A stretch of 64,000 nt of DNA from Oceanihabitans sediminis. GTDB lineage: Bacteria; Bacteroidota; Bacteroidia; Flavobacteriales; Flavobacteriaceae. The notes below the pieces were generated by a model, which worked only from the letters and a program-made list of their open reading frames with translations, had not been told where the DNA came from and did no database searches. Position numbers and translations under genes: made by a program. The stretch spans positions 186,001-250,000 of the forward strand of contig NZ_QPIG01000003.1 of assembly GCF_003337215.1 (NCBI RefSeq). The letters are read 5' to 3'. Positions 19,316 through 28,764 of the stretch are shown here, piece by piece. Each line of letters begins with the position of its first letter. Position 1 is the stretch's first letter.

Positions 19316-22300
19316 ATGAGTTTTTTAGATTCAGTACTAAAAGTGTTTGTTGGAGACAAGTCTAAACAAGACGTTAAAGCCATCACACCTTTAGTGAACA
19401 AAATAAAAACCTTTGAAGCTGCCTTAGAAGCTTTATCGCACGATGAGCTTAGAGCAAAAACGGCTTTCTTTAAAGAGAAAATTGCCGAGGCACGTAAACC
19501 ACTTCAAAGTAAAATTGACGAGCTTCTACTAAAAGCAGAAAACACCGAAGATATTGATGACCGTGAGGAAATCTACATACAAATCGATGGTATTAAAGAT
19601 GAGGTGTATAAAGTAACAGAAGATGTTTTAAACGAAATCTTACCGGAAGCTTTTGCTGTAGTTAAAGAAACTGCAAAACGTTTCACCCATAATACTAGCA
19701 TTCAAGTTACTGCTAATGAATTCGACAGACAAATCTCTGGAGATAAAGATTATGTTACTTTAGACGGTGACCAAGCACTATGGGCTAACTCCTGGGATGC
19801 TGCAGGAAAACCTATTACCTGGGACATGATTCACTATGACGTGCAGTTAATTGGTGGTATTGCTATGCACCAAGGTAAAATTGCAGAGATGCATACCGGG
19901 GAAGGAAAAACCCTAGTTGCTACACTTCCTGTATATCTTAACGCATTAGCAGGTCGCGGAGTACACCTAGTAACAGTAAACGACTACCTAGCAAAACGTG
20001 ATAGCGCATGGATGGCTCCTATTTTTGAGTTCCATGGTATGAGTGTAGACTGTATAGATTATCACCGACCTAATTCTGCCGCTAGAAAGAAAGCATATAA
20101 CGCAGATATCACTTACGGTACAAACAACGAGTTTGGTTTTGATTACCTAAGAGATAATATGGCACACAATCCAGACGATTTGGTGCAACGCCCACATCAC
20201 TACGCTATTGTAGATGAGGTGGATTCGGTTTTAATTGATGATGCAAGAACACCATTAATTATTTCAGGTCCTATCCCTAAAGGAGATCAGCACGAATTTG
20301 ACGCTTTAAAACCTAAGGTGGAAGATATCGTTTCGGTACAACGTAAATTTTTAACGGGAGTTTTAGCCGAAGCAAAAAAACTAATTGCTGCTGGTGATGA
20401 AAAAGAAGGAGGTTTCAAACTACTTCAGGTTTATAGAGGTATTCCTAAAAACAAAGCACTTATTAAGTTTTTAAGTGAAGAAGGTGTAAAACAACTACTT
20501 CAAAAAACTGAAAATTATTACATGCAAGACAACAACCGTGAGATGCCAAAGGTAGATGCGGAATTGTACTATGTAATTGAAGAGAAAAACAATCAGATTG
20601 AATTATCAGATAAAGGAATCGAATACCTTTCTGGAAAAGACAATCCGGACTTCTTCATCATGCCAGAAATTGGTACAGAAATAGCTAAAATTGAAGCAAA
20701 AGGTTTAAGCAAAGAAGAAGAAGCTGCAGAAAAAGAAGAATTATTCAGAGACTTTGGTATCAAATCCGAACGTATTCATACCCTTAACCAATTACTAAAA
20801 GCATACGCACTTTTTGAAAAAGATGTACAGTATGTTGTAATGGACAATAAGGTAATGATTGTAGATGAGCAAACCGGTCGTATTATGGATGGACGTCGTT
20901 ATTCAGACGGACTACACCAAGCGATTGAAGCAAAAGAAAGCGTAAAGATTGAAGATGCTACCCAAACATTTGCTACGGTAACCCTTCAGAATTACTTCAG
21001 AATGTACCGTAAGCTTTCTGGTATGACAGGAACGGCGGTTACAGAAGCTGGGGAGTTCTGGGAAATCTACAAATTAGATGTTGTTGAAATTCCTACCAAC
21101 AGACCTATTGCTCGTGATGACAGACAAGATTTAGTTTATAAAACCAAGCGTGAAAAATATAACGCAGTTATTGATGAGGTAACGAAACTTTCGCAAGCAG
21201 GAAGACCAGTATTAATTGGTACTACCAACGTAGAAATTTCAGAACTTTTAGGAAAAATGCTTTCTATTAGAAAAGTTCCTCACAATGTATTAAACGCGAA
21301 ACTGCACAAAAAAGAGGCAGATATTGTAGCAGAAGCAGGTAAACCAGGACAGGTAACCATTGCTACCAATATGGCAGGTCGTGGTACAGATATTAAGCTA
21401 AGCGAAGAAGTAAAAGCTGCTGGAGGTTTAGCCATTATTGGTACAGAACGTCATGATTCTCGTCGTGTAGACAGACAGTTACGTGGTCGTGCCGGTCGTC
21501 AAGGAGATCCAGGAAGCTCGCAATTCTATGTTTCGTTAGAAGATAATTTAATGCGTCTTTTCGGAAGCGAACGTATTGCGAAAATGATGGATAGAATGGG
21601 ATTACAAGAAGGTGAAGTAATTCAGCATTCTATGATTTCAAAATCTATTGAAAGAGCACAGAAAAAAGTAGAAGAAAATAACTTTGGTGTACGTAAGCGT
21701 TTACTAGAGTATGATGATGTAATGAATGCGCAACGTGAGGTAGTTTACAAACGTAGATATAACGCCTTATTTGGTGAGCGTCTTCGTGTAGACATCGCGA
21801 ATATGGTGTATGATACAACAGAACTTATTGTAGACACGAATAAAGCGGCAAACGACTTTAAGAATTTCGAATTTGAATTAATTCGTTACTTCTCTATGAG
21901 TTCGCCAATTACGGAAGCAGAGTTCACAAAACTTTCGGTTCAAGAAGCTTCTCAAAGAGTTTATAAGGCTGCTTTTGCGCATTATAAAGAAAAAATGGAG
22001 CGTAATGCAGAAGTTGCATTCCCTGTAATTAAAAATGTGTACGAAACACAAGGAGATAAATTCAGAAGAATTGTAGTTCCTTTTACAGATGGTGTAAAAT
22101 CTTTACAAGTGGTTACAGACTTAGAGAAAGCATACCAAACACAAGGAAAACAACTTATTACCGATTTTGAAAAGAATATCACTCTAGCCATTATTGATGA
22201 TGCGTGGAAAACACACCTTCGTAAAATGGATGAGTTAAAGCAATCGGTACAATTAGCGGTTCACGAACAAAAAGACCCGTTGTTAATTTATAAATTCGAA

Positions 22301-22666
22301 GCTTTTGAATTATTCAAATCCACAATAGACCAAGTTAATAAAGATGTCATCTCTTTCTTATTTAAAGGAGAACTTCCTACACAAGAGTCTAATATTCAAG
22401 AAGCAAGAGAAACTCCTAAAAAGGAAAACTTACAGACACAAAAAGAAGAAATCCCGAACTTAGACGAACGTTCTTCTCAAAACAGAGCTGCAGGTAATAC
22501 ACAACGTCAACAAGAAGTAGTAGAAACGATTGTTCGTGACAAACCAAAAATTGGACGTAACGACAAAGTGACTATCAAAAATGTGATGAGTGGCGAAAAT
22601 AAAACAGTAAAATACAAACAAGCAGAACCTTTAATTGCCAAAGGCGAATGGGTTTTAGTAGAATAA
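19316..22666 (+). CDS. secA: Preprotein translocase ATPase SecA
   Basis: Motor that drives unfolded preproteins through SecYEG. It has Walker A MHTGEGKTLVA (about residue 200), DEAD-like VDEVDSVLIDDARTP, GTNNEFGFDYLRDNM, and helicase motif VTIATNMAGRGTDI. The arginine-rich end of the motor is DRQLRGRAGRQGDPGSSQFY, followed by the helical scaffold with LEYDDVMNAQREVVY. At 1116 residues it is longer than E. coli SecA (901) because of insertions typical of Bacteroidota, for example about residues 340-410. The C-terminal zinc-binding CxCxnC/H motif is absent. In its place is GRNDKVTIKNVMSGE...GEWVLVE, also usual for the phylum. It is preceded by a long structured leader and followed by a strong terminator. 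Confidence 0.97.
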   Translation: MSFLDSVLKVFVGDKSKQDVKAITPLVNKIKTFEAALEALSHDELRAKTAFFKEKIAEARKPLQSKIDELLLKAENTEDIDDREEIYIQIDGIKDEVYKVTEDVLNEILPEAFAVVKETAKRFTHNTSIQVTANEFDRQISGDKDYVTLDGDQALWANSWDAAGKPITWDMIHYDVQLIGGIAMHQGKIAEMHTGEGKTLVATLPVYLNALAGRGVHLVTVNDYLAKRDSAWMAPIFEFHGMSVDCIDYHRPNSAARKKAYNADITYGTNNEFGFDYLRDNMAHNPDDLVQRPHHYAIVDEVDSVLIDDARTPLIISGPIPKGDQHEFDALKPKVEDIVSVQRKFLTGVLAEAKKLIAAGDEKEGGFKLLQVYRGIPKNKALIKFLSEEGVKQLLQKTENYYMQDNNREMPKVDAELYYVIEEKNNQIELSDKGIEYLSGKDNPDFFIMPEIGTEIAKIEAKGLSKEEEAAEKEELFRDFGIKSERIHTLNQLLKAYALFEKDVQYVVMDNKVMIVDEQTGRIMDGRRYSDGLHQAIEAKESVKIEDATQTFATVTLQNYFRMYRKLSGMTGTAVTEAGEFWEIYKLDVVEIPTNRPIARDDRQDLVYKTKREKYNAVIDEVTKLSQAGRPVLIGTTNVEISELLGKMLSIRKVPHNVLNAKLHKKEADIVAEAGKPGQVTIATNMAGRGTDIKLSEEVKAAGGLAIIGTERHDSRRVDRQLRGRAGRQGDPGSSQFYVSLEDNLMRLFGSERIAKMMDRMGLQEGEVIQHSMISKSIERAQKKVEENNFGVRKRLLEYDDVMNAQREVVYKRRYNALFGERLRVDIANMVYDTTELIVDTNKAANDFKNFEFELIRYFSMSSPITEAEFTKLSVQEASQRVYKAAFAHYKEKMERNAEVAFPVIKNVYETQGDKFRRIVVPFTDGVKSLQVVTDLEKAYQTQGKQLITDFEKNITLAIIDDAWKTHLRKMDELKQSVQLAVHEQKDPLLIYKFEAFELFKSTIDQVNKDVISFLFKGELPTQESNIQEARETPKKENLQTQKEEIPNLDERSSQNRAAGNTQRQQEVVETIVRDKPKIGRNDKVTIKNVMSGENKTVKYKQAEPLIAKGEWVLVE

Positions 22667-22943: not shown

Positions 22944-25900
22944 ATGATGCTTTACAAAACCCTAAAGCAATATTTTGTGCTATTAATTATTTCCTACACG
23001 TTTAGTGTTTCACAAAATATTTCTGCACAAACTATCAGCTTTGGCTCTTCTGGATTAGTTGGTCAAACTGTTTTAAATCCTACTTCTTTAGATTTTGGAC
23101 CAGATGGAAGACTTTACGTTTCACAACAAGATGGAAAAATTTGGGCTTATACCATAAGTCGAGATGCAGCAATTTCTGGTAGCGGAACCTATACAATTAC
23201 CAATACCGAGGTAATTAATACCATTCAAACAGGAATTGTAAATCATAATGACTCTGGTGTTGCAAACACAACACAGCAACGCCTAATCACCGGAATATTA
23301 ACTGCAGGAACACCAACAAACCCTATTATATATGTAACCTCATCCGATTTCTTATTCGGTGGTGGTGGTGCTGGTAGCGATACCAACCTAGATACCAACT
23401 CTAGTATTCTTTCAAAATTAGAATGGACAGGAACTTCTTGGCATAAAATAGATTTGATTAGAGGTTTAGCTCGTTGCGAAGAAAACCATGCTATTAATGG
23501 TATGGACATGTTTGAAAAAGATGGCAACACCTATTTACTTATCTCACAAGGAGGAAACACAAACAAGGGAGCTCCTAGTAATAATTTTGCGGGTACTCCA
23601 GAGTATTTTCTTTCTGGATCTATACTAGTTGCAAATCTAACACAGCTAGAAAGTATGCCGGTATATACAGACCCAAGAACAAATACCGAGTATGTTTACG
23701 ATTTACCAACACTAAACGACCCTACAAGATTAGACATTGATAATACGCATCCGGAATTCCCATATCCTGTTGGACATCCAATGTATAACGCAACCATAGA
23801 CATCAACGACCCCTTTGGTGGAAACAATAGCTTAAACCAAGCTTTTCCAGAGCCAGGAGGACCATTACAGGTTTTTGCTCCTGGCTTTAGAAATGCTTAT
23901 GATATTTTAGTTACAGAAGGCGGAAGAATTTATACTTCAGATAACGGACCAAATTCTCTTTGGGGAGGAGTTCCAAAAATATACGACAGTGCCACAGACC
24001 AATATCTAGGAGATGAAAGCACGATTACTTATGATCCTTTATTGCACTATGTAACCAACGAAATGAATGAATCTGGATCTAGCTTAATTGGTGACCCACT
24101 ACATTATGTAGGAACGATTAACGATTCTAATAAAACTTATTATGGTGGACATCCAATTCCTATTGCAGCATTTCCTTCAAGAGCTAAAGTTATAGCCTAT
24201 CATAAAGTAAATGGAACATGGGAAGCAGCAAGCACACACGATTTCGGAACACTGTTAACAGGTGCTGCTGGTTATTTTAATAATTCCTTTTCCATAGCAG
24301 ATTTTCCAGACGAACCTAGGTTAGCAGAATATCTTTTAGATGAACCAGTGGGAAGCTCAAAAGTAAATATTCTAGATGTTAGAAACTCCTCTACCAATGG
24401 AATTACCGAATACACAGCTTCTAACTTTGGCGGAATCATGCAAGGAAATGTATTAACAGCTTCCTTCAACGGAGACATAAATAGATATAAATTTAATACT
24501 GCGGGAAATGCTATTGAGGAATACGAGGTTATTTTTAGTGGTTTCGGGTCCATTCCTTTAGACGTGATTGCGCAAGGTGATAACGATGTTTTCCCTGGAA
24601 CAGTTTGGGCAGTAACCTATGGTGCAAATAATATTACGGTTTTTGAACCTTCGGATATAGATTGTATACAACCTGGAGAACCAGGATATGACCCAGAAGC
24701 AGATAATGACGGGGATGGCTATACCAACCAAGATGAAATAGATAACGGAACAAATATCTGTTCACAAGGTAGTAAGCCAAAAGATAATGACGGAGACTTT
24801 GTTTCCGACTTAAATGATGATGACGACGATAATGATGGCATTTTAGATGTAAACGATCCTTTTGCTTTAGACCCAGATAACGGTTTAAGTACCAATCTTC
24901 CGGTAAACTTACCTCTATGGAACAACGATCCGGGCACAGGATTCTTCGGATTAGGATTTACAGGCTTAATGCTAGATCCTTCCGGAAACACAGATTATCT
25001 AACCCAATTTAACGAAGAAGATTTATCCTTTGGTGGTGCTGCAGGAAAAGCAACAGTCGATTTAGTGACTAGTGGCGATGCATTAACAAACAACCAAGCT
25101 AATGCGTTTCAGTTTGGTGTGAATGTTGACTCTAACTCCAACCCTTTTACGATTCACTCGAAAATTGAATCCCCTTTCTTCGGAATTAGTGGTTCGCAAA
25201 CAGAACCTGTAGATTATCAATCCTACGGAATTAGTTTAGGAAACGGTGATCAAGACAATTATTTGAAACTCGTTTTAATGAATGGAACTTCTAATGCTGA
25301 TACAGTGCAAGGCTTACAAGTTTTAATGGAAGACAATGGCGTAGTAACACATGATACTGCCTATGATATTCCCGGAATATTAAATGCAGGCTCTGTAAAT
25401 TTATACTTCAGTGTAGACCCTGCTGCCAATACAGCACAACCTTTTTATTCAATTGATGACGGACAAACACTAAATGTATTAGGTGCACCAATAACATTAC
25501 CGCTAAGCTTTTTAGACGCTACAGACAATATAGGTCTTGCCATAGGAATGATTTCCACCTCTAGAGGGGCTACCCCATTTACTGCTACTTGGGATTATTT
25601 TGAAGTGTATGAAAACCAAAACGGCATACTTTCCTCAGAGCCAGAACCTTTAGATTTCGGTCTCACACCAACAGCAAATTCCTTAAGAAAAAAACCTTTA
25701 AAGCTTAGTAATGAAGGAGGCCCAACTGATGACCCTATTACAATTTCAACTTTAAACTTTACTGGAGTAGATGCTGCACTCTTTAGTACAGATGCCGTAT
25801 TTCCTATAGTTGTTAACCCTGGTTCATCGGTACACATTCCTATTAACTTTTTATCTGATAATATAGTAGGTATTAAAAATGCTACGGTAGAAATAACGCA

Positions 25901-27764
25901 CTCCGGAAACAACCCACTAATCACTAATAATGTAACCGGAGAACTTACAGATATTTATCAACCAATAGTTAGGATTAATGCCGGTGGCGCAACCATTGCT
26001 GCTTCAGATGGAGGGCCAGATTGGGAAATAAATAATTCTAATGGCTCAACAACCGGACCTTCCTATACCGTTTCATCTGGTTCAAAATTTGAAATTACTC
26101 CTATGGAATTAGACTATGCAGCTAAAGACGCTTCTATTCCTGCATATATTGATGAGGCTACCTATCTAGAAATCATTCGTACACAACGAAGTATTTCTGC
26201 TAGCTCTACTCCTATGGTATTTTCTATACCTGTTCCAAACGGAGATTATATTGTGAACTTTTACGCAGGAAACCTGTATCACGGAACTAGATTTCCAGGC
26301 TCCCGTATTTTTAGTGTAGATATAGAGGGCGAAAGAAGAATAGATAATTTAGACGTTGTAGCATCTTATGGACACCGTGCTGCAGGGATGATTCAAAATA
26401 ACGTACAAGTAAATGATGGAATCCTAGAAATTGCTTTTTTTAGAAATATAGAAAATCCGCTTGTAAATGCCATAGAAATACTTGGAGTAGCAAATTCTAA
26501 TATTGTCATCGAACCAATCGCAGATATTACTAACTGTGAATTAGAAATATCCGACTTCTCAGCCATAGCTAGTGGAGGAAGTAGCTCTGCTAACTTCACA
26601 TATAGTATTAGTGGACAACCGAGTGGTTTATCTATTGAGCCAACCAACGGACTTATTTATGGAACTATAGATGCGAGTGCTGTTACTGGCGGACCGAATA
26701 ATGACGGTGTACACCAAGTAATAGTTACCGTTTCTAAACCTGGAAGTACAGATGCGACTGAAACCTTTACTTGGACTGTTTTAGAAGACATCGAAGCTCC
26801 TGCATTAACTTGTCTAGCAGACATCGCACAAACAGCAGATGCTGGTACGTGTAGTGCAATCGTAAGTATTGCAGAACCAACAGCCACAGACAATTGTACT
26901 AGCGCTATTACATATTCAGGAACAAGAAGTGACAGTTTAGAGTTAACAGATACATACCCATTAGGAAATACCATTATTACTTGGGTGGCAACAGATGCTG
27001 CTGGAAATAGTTCGGCTACTTGTGAACAAACAATAACGATCACAGATGATGAACTACCTATCATAACTTGTCCGGAAGATATTATAGAAATCATAGCGGA
27101 AGGCGAAACACAAGCTACAGTAGCTATTACAGAACCAACTGCTACAGATAATTGCTCCGGAGCTATAAGTTATAATGGTGTTAGATCGGATGCTTTAGCT
27201 TTAACCGATACCTATCCTTTAGGAGAAACCATTATTACCTGGATTGCAACAGATGCTGCAGGAAATGAATCGGGTGCATGTACACAAACCATAACCGTTA
27301 CGCATTCATACAGCTTAAGCTTAATGGTAAGCTTACAAGGAAGAACCGATTATTCCGGAAGCTATTCCGTAATCATCTATAAGGAAGAGGACTTAGTAAC
27401 ACCAATTCATAGTTTAAATGAAACAGCAGATACTAGTGGAAATATTCTGCTTAGCACAGAACTTATTCCGGGCAACTACAAGGTTTTAGTAAAGCACCCT
27501 CAGTACTTACAGCGACTACTTAATCTAACTTTAGTAGAAAACCAAACAGAAACTATAAGTCCAATGCTGGCAGGAGATATTAACAACGATAATAATGTCA
27601 ATTTCTTAGACTTCGGAATTTTATCTAGTACCTATGGACTAAGTTCCACAGACACTGGGTTTGACAGTCAAGCAGATTTAGACAATAATTTAACCATCAA
27701 CTACTTAGACTTCGGATTACTGTCTGGAAACCATAGCTTGTCTGGTGAAACACAAAATGATTAA
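22944..27764 (+). CDS. Secreted multidomain protein: sugar-dehydrogenase-like propeller, malectin, HYR and dockerin
   Basis: A very large exported protein of 1606 residues with a Sec signal peptide (about 1-29). Domains in order, with rough positions. Residues 30-570 are a GSDH/PQQ-sugar-dehydrogenase-like propeller (DFGPDGRLYVSQQDGKIWAY; FAPGFRNAYDI). Residues 575-645 are an Asp-rich thrombospondin-3-like calcium segment. Residues 650-890 are a beta-sandwich I do not recognise. Residues 900-1000 are Ig-like. Residues 1005-1185 are malectin (IRINAGG). Residues 1190-1280 are Ig-like. Two HYR domains follow (1282-1453). Residues 1454-1539 are a beta-sandwich (SLQGRTDYSG). Residues 1540-1606 are a type I dockerin with both calcium loops (DINNDNNVNFLD and DLDNNLTINYLD). 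No T9SS sorting domain is present, which is unusual for such a protein. The next gene, 11 bases on, encodes a cohesin-like protein. Function is inferred as carbohydrate-related. Confidence 0.88.
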   Translation: MMLYKTLKQYFVLLIISYTFSVSQNISAQTISFGSSGLVGQTVLNPTSLDFGPDGRLYVSQQDGKIWAYTISRDAAISGSGTYTITNTEVINTIQTGIVNHNDSGVANTTQQRLITGILTAGTPTNPIIYVTSSDFLFGGGGAGSDTNLDTNSSILSKLEWTGTSWHKIDLIRGLARCEENHAINGMDMFEKDGNTYLLISQGGNTNKGAPSNNFAGTPEYFLSGSILVANLTQLESMPVYTDPRTNTEYVYDLPTLNDPTRLDIDNTHPEFPYPVGHPMYNATIDINDPFGGNNSLNQAFPEPGGPLQVFAPGFRNAYDILVTEGGRIYTSDNGPNSLWGGVPKIYDSATDQYLGDESTITYDPLLHYVTNEMNESGSSLIGDPLHYVGTINDSNKTYYGGHPIPIAAFPSRAKVIAYHKVNGTWEAASTHDFGTLLTGAAGYFNNSFSIADFPDEPRLAEYLLDEPVGSSKVNILDVRNSSTNGITEYTASNFGGIMQGNVLTASFNGDINRYKFNTAGNAIEEYEVIFSGFGSIPLDVIAQGDNDVFPGTVWAVTYGANNITVFEPSDIDCIQPGEPGYDPEADNDGDGYTNQDEIDNGTNICSQGSKPKDNDGDFVSDLNDDDDDNDGILDVNDPFALDPDNGLSTNLPVNLPLWNNDPGTGFFGLGFTGLMLDPSGNTDYLTQFNEEDLSFGGAAGKATVDLVTSGDALTNNQANAFQFGVNVDSNSNPFTIHSKIESPFFGISGSQTEPVDYQSYGISLGNGDQDNYLKLVLMNGTSNADTVQGLQVLMEDNGVVTHDTAYDIPGILNAGSVNLYFSVDPAANTAQPFYSIDDGQTLNVLGAPITLPLSFLDATDNIGLAIGMISTSRGATPFTATWDYFEVYENQNGILSSEPEPLDFGLTPTANSLRKKPLKLSNEGGPTDDPITISTLNFTGVDAALFSTDAVFPIVVNPGSSVHIPINFLSDNIVGIKNATVEITHSGNNPLITNNVTGELTDIYQPIVRINAGGATIAASDGGPDWEINNSNGSTTGPSYTVSSGSKFEITPMELDYAAKDASIPAYIDEATYLEIIRTQRSISASSTPMVFSIPVPNGDYIVNFYAGNLYHGTRFPGSRIFSVDIEGERRIDNLDVVASYGHRAAGMIQNNVQVNDGILEIAFFRNIENPLVNAIEILGVANSNIVIEPIADITNCELEISDFSAIASGGSSSANFTYSISGQPSGLSIEPTNGLIYGTIDASAVTGGPNNDGVHQVIVTVSKPGSTDATETFTWTVLEDIEAPALTCLADIAQTADAGTCSAIVSIAEPTATDNCTSAITYSGTRSDSLELTDTYPLGNTIITWVATDAAGNSSATCEQTITITDDELPIITCPEDIIEIIAEGETQATVAITEPTATDNCSGAISYNGVRSDALALTDTYPLGETIITWIATDAAGNESGACTQTITVTHSYSLSLMVSLQGRTDYSGSYSVIIYKEEDLVTPIHSLNETADTSGNILLSTELIPGNYKVLVKHPQYLQRLLNLTLVENQTETISPMLAGDINNDNNVNFLDFGILSSTYGLSSTDTGFDSQADLDNNLTINYLDFGLLSGNHSLSGETQND

Positions 27765-27775
27765 AACAAGAAATT

Positions 27776-28567
27776 ATGAAAACGATTAAAAACTTAAGCT
27801 TTAAAATACTTTTGTTACTAACTATCATAGGTAGTTTTAACATGAAAGCGCAAACAAACAATGCATCAGTCGAAACAGTAGACATACTTGCAAGCGTTGA
27901 TGCAAATCCGCCACTCGCAATTGGTGATACATTTACGTATACACTACAAGCAGTTGCAGGTACGACCCCATATACGGTAGTTCAAATATATTTAGAATAT
28001 AATGAAGCCGTTATTCAACTAAATAGTTTAACTCCGGATTATACAGACCTGAATATTCCTTTAGCAAACGATACTTCTGTTCCTGAGGTTATTCGTTATT
28101 CTGCTGGTACTTTGTCGGGTCCTCTTACCGGAACCACCACCTTATTTACAGCTGTCTTTGAAGTTGTAGGTACTTCAGAATTTGTCATGATAACACATGA
28201 CTTAGCTGTTGACGGAAATTCTAATGGCACAGGAGTTGCAGGAACTGCAGGGCTAGATATTACAGGAAGTGTCAACGATATTATTCTAGCTACACTCCAC
28301 ACAGAAACAAATACCTTTAGCAATGCTATCTCCATTTATCCAAACCCAGCAAAGGATGTTGTGAATATTCAACTAAATGCTGCTAATCCAGGTATTCAAT
28401 CTATAAACATGTACACCATAGATGGAAAGCTTGTACTACAAAAGGAAAACATTACTAGCAATAGCATTTCTATAGATACCTCCAAGTTTCATAATGCCAT
28501 CTATTTCATGAAAGTTATATCAACTAAAAATGAAGTAGAGATCTTTAAGATACTTGTCGATCATTAA
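27776..28567 (+). CDS. Cohesin-like protein with T9SS type A sorting domain
   Basis: A 263-residue exported protein. The signal peptide ends near MKAQT (residue 24). Residues about 30-165 have the pattern of a cohesin: an opening strand with PLAIGDTFTYTLQAV, then VVQIYLEYNEAVIQLNSL, TTTLFTAVFEVV, and a closing DITGSVNDIIL. Residues about 185-263 are a T9SS C-terminal sorting domain (ISIYPNPAKDVVNIQL, then NMYTIDGKLVLQ, and the end IYFMKV...EIFKILVDH), which targets the protein to the cell surface. It directly follows the dockerin gene, from which it is separated by 11 bases, and shares its terminator. The natural reading is that this protein holds the dockerin protein on the surface or carries it out. 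The cohesin call rests on pattern and context, not on an alignment. Confidence 0.82.
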   Translation: MKTIKNLSFKILLLLTIIGSFNMKAQTNNASVETVDILASVDANPPLAIGDTFTYTLQAVAGTTPYTVVQIYLEYNEAVIQLNSLTPDYTDLNIPLANDTSVPEVIRYSAGTLSGPLTGTTTLFTAVFEVVGTSEFVMITHDLAVDGNSNGTGVAGTAGLDITGSVNDIILATLHTETNTFSNAISIYPNPAKDVVNIQLNAANPGIQSINMYTIDGKLVLQKENITSNSISIDTSKFHNAIYFMKVISTKNEVEIFKILVDH

Positions 28568-28588
28568 TTAATCCTAATATCGAGTTTA

Positions 28589-28626
28589 AATCAGGGTAGC
28601 ATATAAATGTAACCCTGATTTTTTTT
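28589..28626 (+). terminator. Terminator of the dockerin-cohesin operon
   Basis: Stem AATCAGGGT/ACCCTGATT followed by eight T residues, 22 bases after the cohesin gene. No comparable hairpin lies between the two genes, supporting one transcript. Confidence 0.88.
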
Positions 28627-28764
28627 ATTCTACCCAAGTTACACCTATAAATTAGTCGAAAATATATCTGATAAATCATCAAATAATTCTCATGAAAAGT
28701 CCGTTAGCTATTTAAAGATGCACAATTTTTAAAGTATATTTACACTTTAAAACAGTTTACAGAA

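Follow-up and report, generated by a model that had tools for sequence, protein, structure and literature searches.

How might a large protein that lacks a sorting domain of its own reach the surface of a flavobacterium? The question is raised by two genes in a stretch of 64,000 nt from Oceanihabitans sediminis (GCF_003337215.1, contig NZ_QPIG01000003.1, positions 186,001-250,000, forward strand), here called the window. Gene 1 encodes a large exported protein ending in a dockerin. Gene 2 starts on the same strand with 11 bases between the stop codon of gene 1 and its own ATG, and encodes a small protein with a predicted cohesin and a C-terminal sorting domain (CTD) of the type IX secretion system (T9SS) (Table 1). 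A preliminary description of this DNA, made from the letters alone, had placed both genes and their spacing exactly, and had suggested that the second protein carries the first or anchors it at the surface. Cargo of the T9SS is described as requiring a CTD in one account (PMC9251779), and the cargo proteins of human pathogens are said in another to 'invariably possess' one (PMC8545088). We argue that the two genes probably encode the two pieces of a split T9SS substrate, a reading to which we give a probability of about two in three, judged from comparative sequence evidence.

The Pfam family Dockerin_1 covers residues 1543-1593 of gene 1, at its C-terminal end. The score of PF00404 was 21.3 bits when the protein was scanned singly, which is under the cut-off of 22.9, and 26.2 bits in the genome scan, which is over it. 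Both calcium loops, DINNDNNVNFLD and DLDNNLTINYLD, can be recognised by eye, and a profile built from 12 orthologues (A5) matches the solved dockerin 2y3n_B with an E-value of 4.2e-9. We found no CTD or Por_Secre_tail in gene 1 by Pfam, NCBIfam or our local profile, and because its own CTD was not found, we did not file gene 1 as an ordinary T9SS substrate. The complete two-loop dockerin without a T9SS sorting domain, as initially described, was thus recovered. No glycoside hydrolase family appeared in the Pfam scan of gene 1.

The sorting domain that had been reported in gene 2 is equally clear, with PF18962 (Por_Secre_tail) matching residues 187-259 at E 2.6e-14 and TIGR04183 at E 1.2e-11. 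The C-terminal part of an AlphaFold2 model of gene 2, made from a 6-sequence alignment (predicted template modelling score 0.44), resembles the CTD of RemA in a T9SS translocon structure (8gl6_D, Z 11.9). The genome encodes SprA (PF14349, E 9.6e-131) and contains 39 type A CTD matches, gene 2 among them. With a signal peptide recognised by eye and a type A CTD, gene 2 fits a type A T9SS substrate.

The N-terminal domain of gene 2 had been proposed to be a cohesin, and a search against cohesin profiles had been suggested as a check. The window protein itself gave no match to the Pfam cohesin family PF00963, neither in the protein scan nor in the genome scan, and PDB searches with the single sequence and with a 6-sequence alignment did not find a cohesin. 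Orthologues at the same locus do pass the cut-off of 24.1 bits, with scores of 28.4 (G283), 28.3 (G289) and 26.9 (G258); the orthologue in G127 has 23.9 bits alone and 24.3 bits with its neighbours in frame. The gene 2 domain shares 32-66% identity with 13 aligned relatives that include G283, G289, G258 and both G127 copies, and a paralogue in G283 with two cohesins, both before its CTD, reaches 32.5 bits. When a profile of 14 sequences (A4) was searched against PDB, type II cohesins came first (3l8q, E 3e-4; 5g5d, E 5e-4). The confidence of the model is middling, with a predicted local distance difference test (pLDDT) score of 61.6. Its residues 32-176 have the cohesin 2vo8 as top match (Z 12.7, 3.3 A, 130 residues aligned), and cohesin entries make up 42 of the 50 among the matches listed. 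The orthologues over the cut-off and the modelled fold confirm the domain as a predicted cohesin, and the proposal stands in this form.

The dockerin had been labelled type I, which is also in the name of the Pfam family and should not be taken literally; both halves resemble type II modules more than type I. Profile A5 matches the type II complex 2y3n first, followed by 5k39 and 2b59, and a profile of the X-module-like domain together with the dockerin (A7) matches the CipA X-dockerin 2b59_B with E 2.4e-8, the alignment spanning the dockerin and a portion of the X-module. Type I dockerins match profile A5 as well (2ccl_B, E 3e-5), and the top structural match of the gene 2 model, 2vo8, is a cohesin of C. 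perfringens. With 2y3n, 3l8q and 2b59 as the best profile matches, type II-like is probably the better label.

The two repeats of a dockerin resemble each other more within one protein than across proteins. Among the 12 orthologues, the identity between repeats is 7.67 of 11 positions within a protein and 6.11 across proteins (0 of 20000 shuffles), for a segment (positions 8-18, the helix) picked after viewing the alignment and for 12 sequences that, sharing ancestry, are not independent of each other. Repeat positions 10, 11, 13 and 16 drive the signal, and position 20, just beyond the segment scored, shows the same tendency. Such co-variation would be favoured by selection if one cohesin were recognised with two-fold symmetry, and gene conversion between the repeats would produce it as well. 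After the second helix, all 12 proteins end in Q-[N/Y]-[D/N], six of them exactly in GETQND, and the codons of this tail vary synonymously with the protein sequence kept.

The two genes recur together in relatives. In the relatives search gene 2 was present in 6 of 60 genomes, the window's own included. Five of the six other genomes of the genus have it (the sixth is 84% complete), and genes 1 and 2 are adjacent in all five. The cohesin profile matched 7 of 299 Flavobacteriaceae genomes, including the window's own and G001. Adjacent pairs are found in G258, G289 and G283 (one each) and in G127 (two in tandem), and the layout in G317 differs. An extra contig scan added Formosa maritima (L026); an alignment as query led to six loci, and one cohesin sequence as query gave no matches. 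By locus, the adjacent pairs lie in L026, L029 (twice), L030, L031 and L033. The same two-gene arrangement, which it had been suggested to look for in other Flavobacteriaceae, therefore exists within the genus and beyond it. In 11 of 12 pairs the gene 2 ATG lies 10-12 nt after the gene 1 stop, and in Formosa 6 nt after it; the longest gene 2 open reading frame (ORF) starts earlier, inside gene 1, in G003, G258, G289 and G283. The immediate upstream neighbour is a secA-like gene in the window and in L009, L011, L012, L026, L030, L031 and L033. Its place is taken by two small genes of another kind in L008 and L010, where the downstream block is the same, and in L029 no secA was found upstream in the stretch covered. 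This last locus, from Mangrovimonas (L029, 1-16000), holds two tandem dockerin/cohesin pairs followed by a gene 1 relative that ends directly in a CTD.

The relation between cargo and sorting domain becomes visible in a census of C-termini. Members of the gene 1 family were collected by their N-terminal domain alone in the 299 Flavobacteriaceae genomes, and the DNA behind all places was used to class the C-termini with local profiles for the CTD (trained on 5 of the 25 CTD-ended members, namely L029 and L119-L122, and on several partner genes), for the dockerin (trained on 11 of 14 dockerins) and for a second module, A6, described below (trained on all 3). We counted 63 ORFs in all, 18 of them running off; 8 of these 18 are fragments that duplicate genes complete in another locus, and for this reason we report 48 places, in 31 of the 299 genomes. 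At ten places the gene is cut by the end of the contig. The other 38 have a complete C-terminus, which is a CTD in 25, a dockerin in 9 and the A6 double-loop module in 1; 3 are unclassified (two masked by N, and L141 with a weak CTD score, E 0.04). None of the 38 proteins carries two of these module classes. Each of the ten proteins with a dockerin or A6 end is accompanied, at no more than 32 bp, by a CTD gene on the same strand, seven downstream and three upstream (G317, G259 and G219); beside the 25 proteins that end in a CTD themselves, no CTD gene lies within 120 bp on either side. For the CTD-ended proteins, at least 900 bp downstream were covered in 24 of 25 cases and 1.5 kb upstream in 24 of 25, with the upstream side of L029 covered by its own locus. 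An upstream same-strand CTD ORF was seen in 7 of these 24 at gaps of at least 234 bp, and in L029 at 273 bp.

The three upstream partners are proteins of 2668-3067 residues with an N-terminal cohesin and a CTD. Their PF00963 scores are 27.8 (G317), 19.3 (G259) and 16.8 bits (G219), the last two under the cut-off. The G317 partner, of 2668 residues, has 28.3 bits in the genome scan and 27.8 as an excised domain, and hmmscan of the whole protein gave no PF00963 row. We use plug for the terminal module of the cargo and socket for the partner domain that would receive it. Seven more plug-ended members (L009-L012, L026, L225 and L229) fit the pattern but were chosen via the partner gene and are not a test of it; once they are added, the CTD gene is adjacent in 17 of 17 plug-ended members.

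At the gene 1 locus of one genus, that of G136, lies a second, putative plug and socket. The propeller protein there ends in a module of 100 residues with two 'GDxNGNNQxRYLGPxND...LK' loops, which is not a dockerin. The next gene, 16 bases away, encodes a protein of 259 residues with a different N-terminal domain ('YEFSxSFVGIN...ELVLFDVI') and a CTD. The identity of the locus is shown by the downstream block, seen in G136, and by secA upstream in the congeners L225 and L229. Both modules are found again at other sites of those genomes (L224, L226) and in G011 (L227, L228), where the carriers are another, small secreted protein and the protein encoded beside it. The sites of this second pair are L113 2062-7738, L224 5455-7248, L226 2175-3993, L227 2619-4477 and L228 658-2465. 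The second socket proteins have about 260-270 residues and a CTD. Neither their N-terminal domain nor the plug module has a convincing Pfam family, and the plug has no convincing PDB family either. The plug is weakly similar to the dockerin (hhalign E 2.9e-4, probability 40) and has an invariant C-terminal PN in 7 of 7 sequences. A diverged cohesin was considered for the second socket, and profile-profile comparison showed no similarity (probability 0.9). Its low-confidence model (pLDDT 51.5) matches chitinase accessory domains at Z 8.5, integrin alpha at 8.4 and cohesins at 7.9 or less; the domain thus seems to be a beta-sandwich of this broad kind, and may be a remote cohesin or a different member of it.

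We placed the A6 proteins in a maximum-likelihood tree of 42 members of the gene 1 family, built on 874 of 3806 alignment columns. All three form one clade nested among the dockerin-bearing proteins, with G258 as its sister (97/94). The CTD-ended relative from Mangrovimonas belongs to the same clade of 15 rows (100/99); its position within that clade is poorly supported (86/76), and it may have kept the ancestral CTD. The C-terminus labels change 4 times on the tree, against 14.5 times with shuffled labels. Because the A6 clade is nested in the dockerin clade at the same locus, plug and socket were exchanged together in the G136 genus. We read this joint exchange as genetic evidence that a plug and a CTD-bearing socket do the job of a CTD.

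The split-substrate reading can be put in steps. Both products would enter the periplasm through Sec, where the X-module and dockerin of the 1606-residue protein would bind the cohesin of the 263-residue protein before export. The binding would restore the linear order, propeller-malectin-...-CTD, of the single-chain relatives, and the CTD of gene 2 would take the complex through the T9SS translocon (SprA). Type A CTDs are exchanged for a surface anchor on export; the same exchange here would leave the large, probably carbohydrate-binding product of gene 1 held non-covalently at the cell surface. According to one account, the T9SS carries folded and very large substrates (PMC9251779). Export of gene 1 on the back of gene 2 had been raised in the preliminary description beside a one-cohesin surface complex. 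We favour the former because CTD and adaptor replace each other in an either/or manner and because both halves were replaced together in one genus. That split substrates are a general mode in the T9SS, with two or more kinds of plug and socket (cohesin-dockerin, and the hitherto undescribed second pair, which took its place at this locus in one genus and serves another carrier protein elsewhere in those genomes), we hold to be an even bet.

Several findings weigh against a split substrate. To the missing Pfam cohesin match and the middling model confidence of gene 2 it has to be added that 7 of the 10 CTD-less members represent one locus or derive from it (the others being G317, G259 and G219), and the independent events are therefore few. 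Of the complete dockerin ORFs inspected in a phylum-wide sample (355 genomes), 24 of 29 carry a CTD of their own, scoring above 10 bits with a home-made CTD profile, and cannot need docking for export. Four dockerin neighbourhoods were viewed outside the gene 1 family: the proteins in G121 and G267 have their own CTD, a short lipoprotein-like dockerin protein in G207 has no CTD gene beside it, and G093 is a contig fragment. Proteins with cohesin and CTD also occur in genomes that gave no dockerin match (G185, G293 and G302), and the two-cohesin CTD protein of G283 (L032, 8109-9290) has no dockerin gene beside it.

The main rival is docking after export, in which the gene 1 product would leave the cell otherwise, by vesicles, lysis or an unrecognised signal, and would then be captured by the surface cohesin. 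Known cohesin-dockerin systems assemble in this way, the same has been proposed for Ca. Stygibacter, and the dockerins with their own CTD in the phylum sample agree with it. It leaves gene 1 without the CTD that its single-chain relatives use, and it sits poorly with a tight operon and a single gene of each kind; we consider it unlikely here. A complex that stays in the periplasm or in vesicles, with the CTD sorting gene 2 only, would require joint export of neither dockerin nor cohesin, and the Sec signal as the only signal read from gene 1 suits it. The gene 1 family, however, appears built for the outside because its N-terminal relatives carry CTDs, and both modules were exchanged together with the CTD kept on the partner, which makes such a complex quite improbable. 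That the cohesin-like domain is an unrelated immunoglobulin-like or jelly-roll fold and the dockerin a calcium-stabilised tail without a partner would explain the missing Pfam match of gene 2, and middling-Z beta-sandwich matches are common, but with G283, G289 and G258 (and G127 with its neighbours) over the PF00963 cut-off, the score of the two-cohesin paralogue and 2vo8 as top match this is hardly credible.

The nearest solved relatives of both halves are type II pairs (C. thermocellum CipA X-dockerin, Acetivibrio ScaB and B. cellulosolvens). In them, as predicted for the window, an X-module stands before the dockerin, and the dockerin is on the large protein with the cohesin on the anchored one. 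Type II cohesins are anchored by SLH domains or sortase, and the anchor in the window is a T9SS sorting domain, with one cohesin and one dockerin; moreover, the dockerin bearer in the window would be the cargo itself, dependent on its partner for export. A cellulosome has several cohesins and several dockerin enzymes. The O. sediminis genome (97% complete) has one dockerin and one gene of gene 2's cohesin type, and the distinction from clostridial cellulosomes drawn at the outset is upheld.

In the phylum sample, cohesin profiles match 115 genomes and dockerin profiles 122, with 82 shared (Fisher p 7e-24, for genomes that are not independent). Among the best-scoring 30 cohesin loci, all 14 complete C-termini score above 10 bits with our home-made CTD profile, and T9SS-borne cohesins look common. 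In the loci of this sample (L153-L212), cohesin, dockerin and CTD are often in one ORF (e.g. L157/L203, L201), a layout like that of a T9SS-anchored network.

A CTD-bearing cohesin scaffold has already been proposed, in Cloacimonadota. In Ca. Stygibacter a cohesin scaffoldin ends in a domain by which it would itself attach to the surface, and dockerin enzymes are proposed to dock to it (PMC8542988). It differs in being a scaffoldin of 3755 residues with tandem cohesins and carbohydrate-binding modules that serves several dockerin enzymes, and a two-gene adaptor operon is not part of what that account describes of its cellulosome-like complex (PMC8542988). RemA and RemZ, type A substrates of a single chain, have the CTD fold and family in common with gene 2, and their cargo and CTD are in one chain (PMC10994853). 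Type B CTD proteins, too, are placed on the surface with the help of a dedicated partner, but this partner is PorP-like (SprF/PorP-like) or a shuttle and the cargo itself bears a CTD, as far as these accounts go (PMC9143113, PMC12618676). Hitchhiker co-translocation by the twin-arginine translocation (Tat) system, cited in PMC9251779, is similar in that a protein lacking a signal crosses together with a partner that has one, and different in membrane and machinery.

In the open-licence PMC literature, as far as it was accessible, we found no account in which a dockerin cargo devoid of a CTD is matched with a cohesin-CTD adaptor. This combination of a cargo with a minimal adaptor dedicated to it is new here, as are the either/or distribution and the second adaptor pair. 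Should cargo be able to borrow a CTD non-covalently, predictions of T9SS secretomes that rely on CTDs alone overlook proteins, preassembled complexes must pass through the translocon, and marine flavobacteria would possess a ready-made plug-and-socket display system. The gene 1/gene 2 pair offers a direct test of whether the T9SS exports folded complexes.

Table 1. Features of the two-gene locus and its upstream neighbour; coordinates refer to the window
Feature	Coordinates	Strand	Basis or remark
secA, upstream neighbour outside the system, helps to fix the syntenic locus	19316-22666	+	ORF of 1116 aa, named by eye
Gene 1, large exported protein without sorting domain, X-module and dockerin at its end	22944-27764	+	1606 aa
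Gene 1, Sec signal peptide, residues 1-29 (...NISAQ|TISFG)	22944-23030	+	read from sequence; cleavage site inferred
Gene 1, N-terminal putative beta-propeller, family-defining domain	23031-24659	+	weak ScyE / SSL_N matches
Gene 1, malectin domain	25965-26474	+	PF11721, E 3.7e-17
Gene 1, He_PIG Ig-like domain	26544-26780	+	PF05345
Gene 1, two HYR repeats	26850-27299	+	PF02494 (two stretches), PF23237; HYR E 3.2e-24
Gene 1, X-module-like domain before the dockerin (VSLQGRTDYSG...YLQR), strongly conserved	27288-27563	+	alignment A7
Gene 1, dockerin, two calcium-loop/helix repeats	27564-27743	+	PF00404; profile A5
Gene 1, C-terminal tail GETQND	27744-27761	+	orthologue alignment
Gene 2, predicted cohesin adaptor with T9SS sorting domain	27776-28567	+	263 aa
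Gene 2, Sec signal peptide, residues 1-26	27776-27853	+	read from sequence; A25 Q26 invariant in six genus sequences
Gene 2, predicted cohesin domain	27854-28330	+	model, orthologue PF00963, profile A4
Gene 2, type A T9SS C-terminal sorting domain (CTD)	28334-28558	+	PF18962, TIGR04183, model

Downstream of gene 2 only 197 bp (28568-28764) separate it from the next conserved gene. In relatives the same interval holds a peptidase-like gene, a gene for a protein of about 500 residues, one for a small protein and a sigma-factor-like gene (names by eye), and given the short interval this four-gene block is missing or moved in the window.

Regarding the other domains of gene 1, the malectin and HYR domains that had been read from the sequence were recovered by Pfam, and the sugar-dehydrogenase-like propeller is weakly supported, with a ScyE match at E 2.8e-4 and no PDB relative of the N-terminal domain found by sequence. 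Between the N-terminal and malectin domains (24696-24866) lie aspartate-rich calcium-loop repeats which by eye seem thrombospondin type 3-like, with a weak NCBIfam match (E 0.15). The number of HYR repeats varies strongly among close orthologues, with two in the window, fewer in L009 and many more in L008 and L010, and the lengths of gene 1 orthologues within the genus range from 1523 to 2039 residues.

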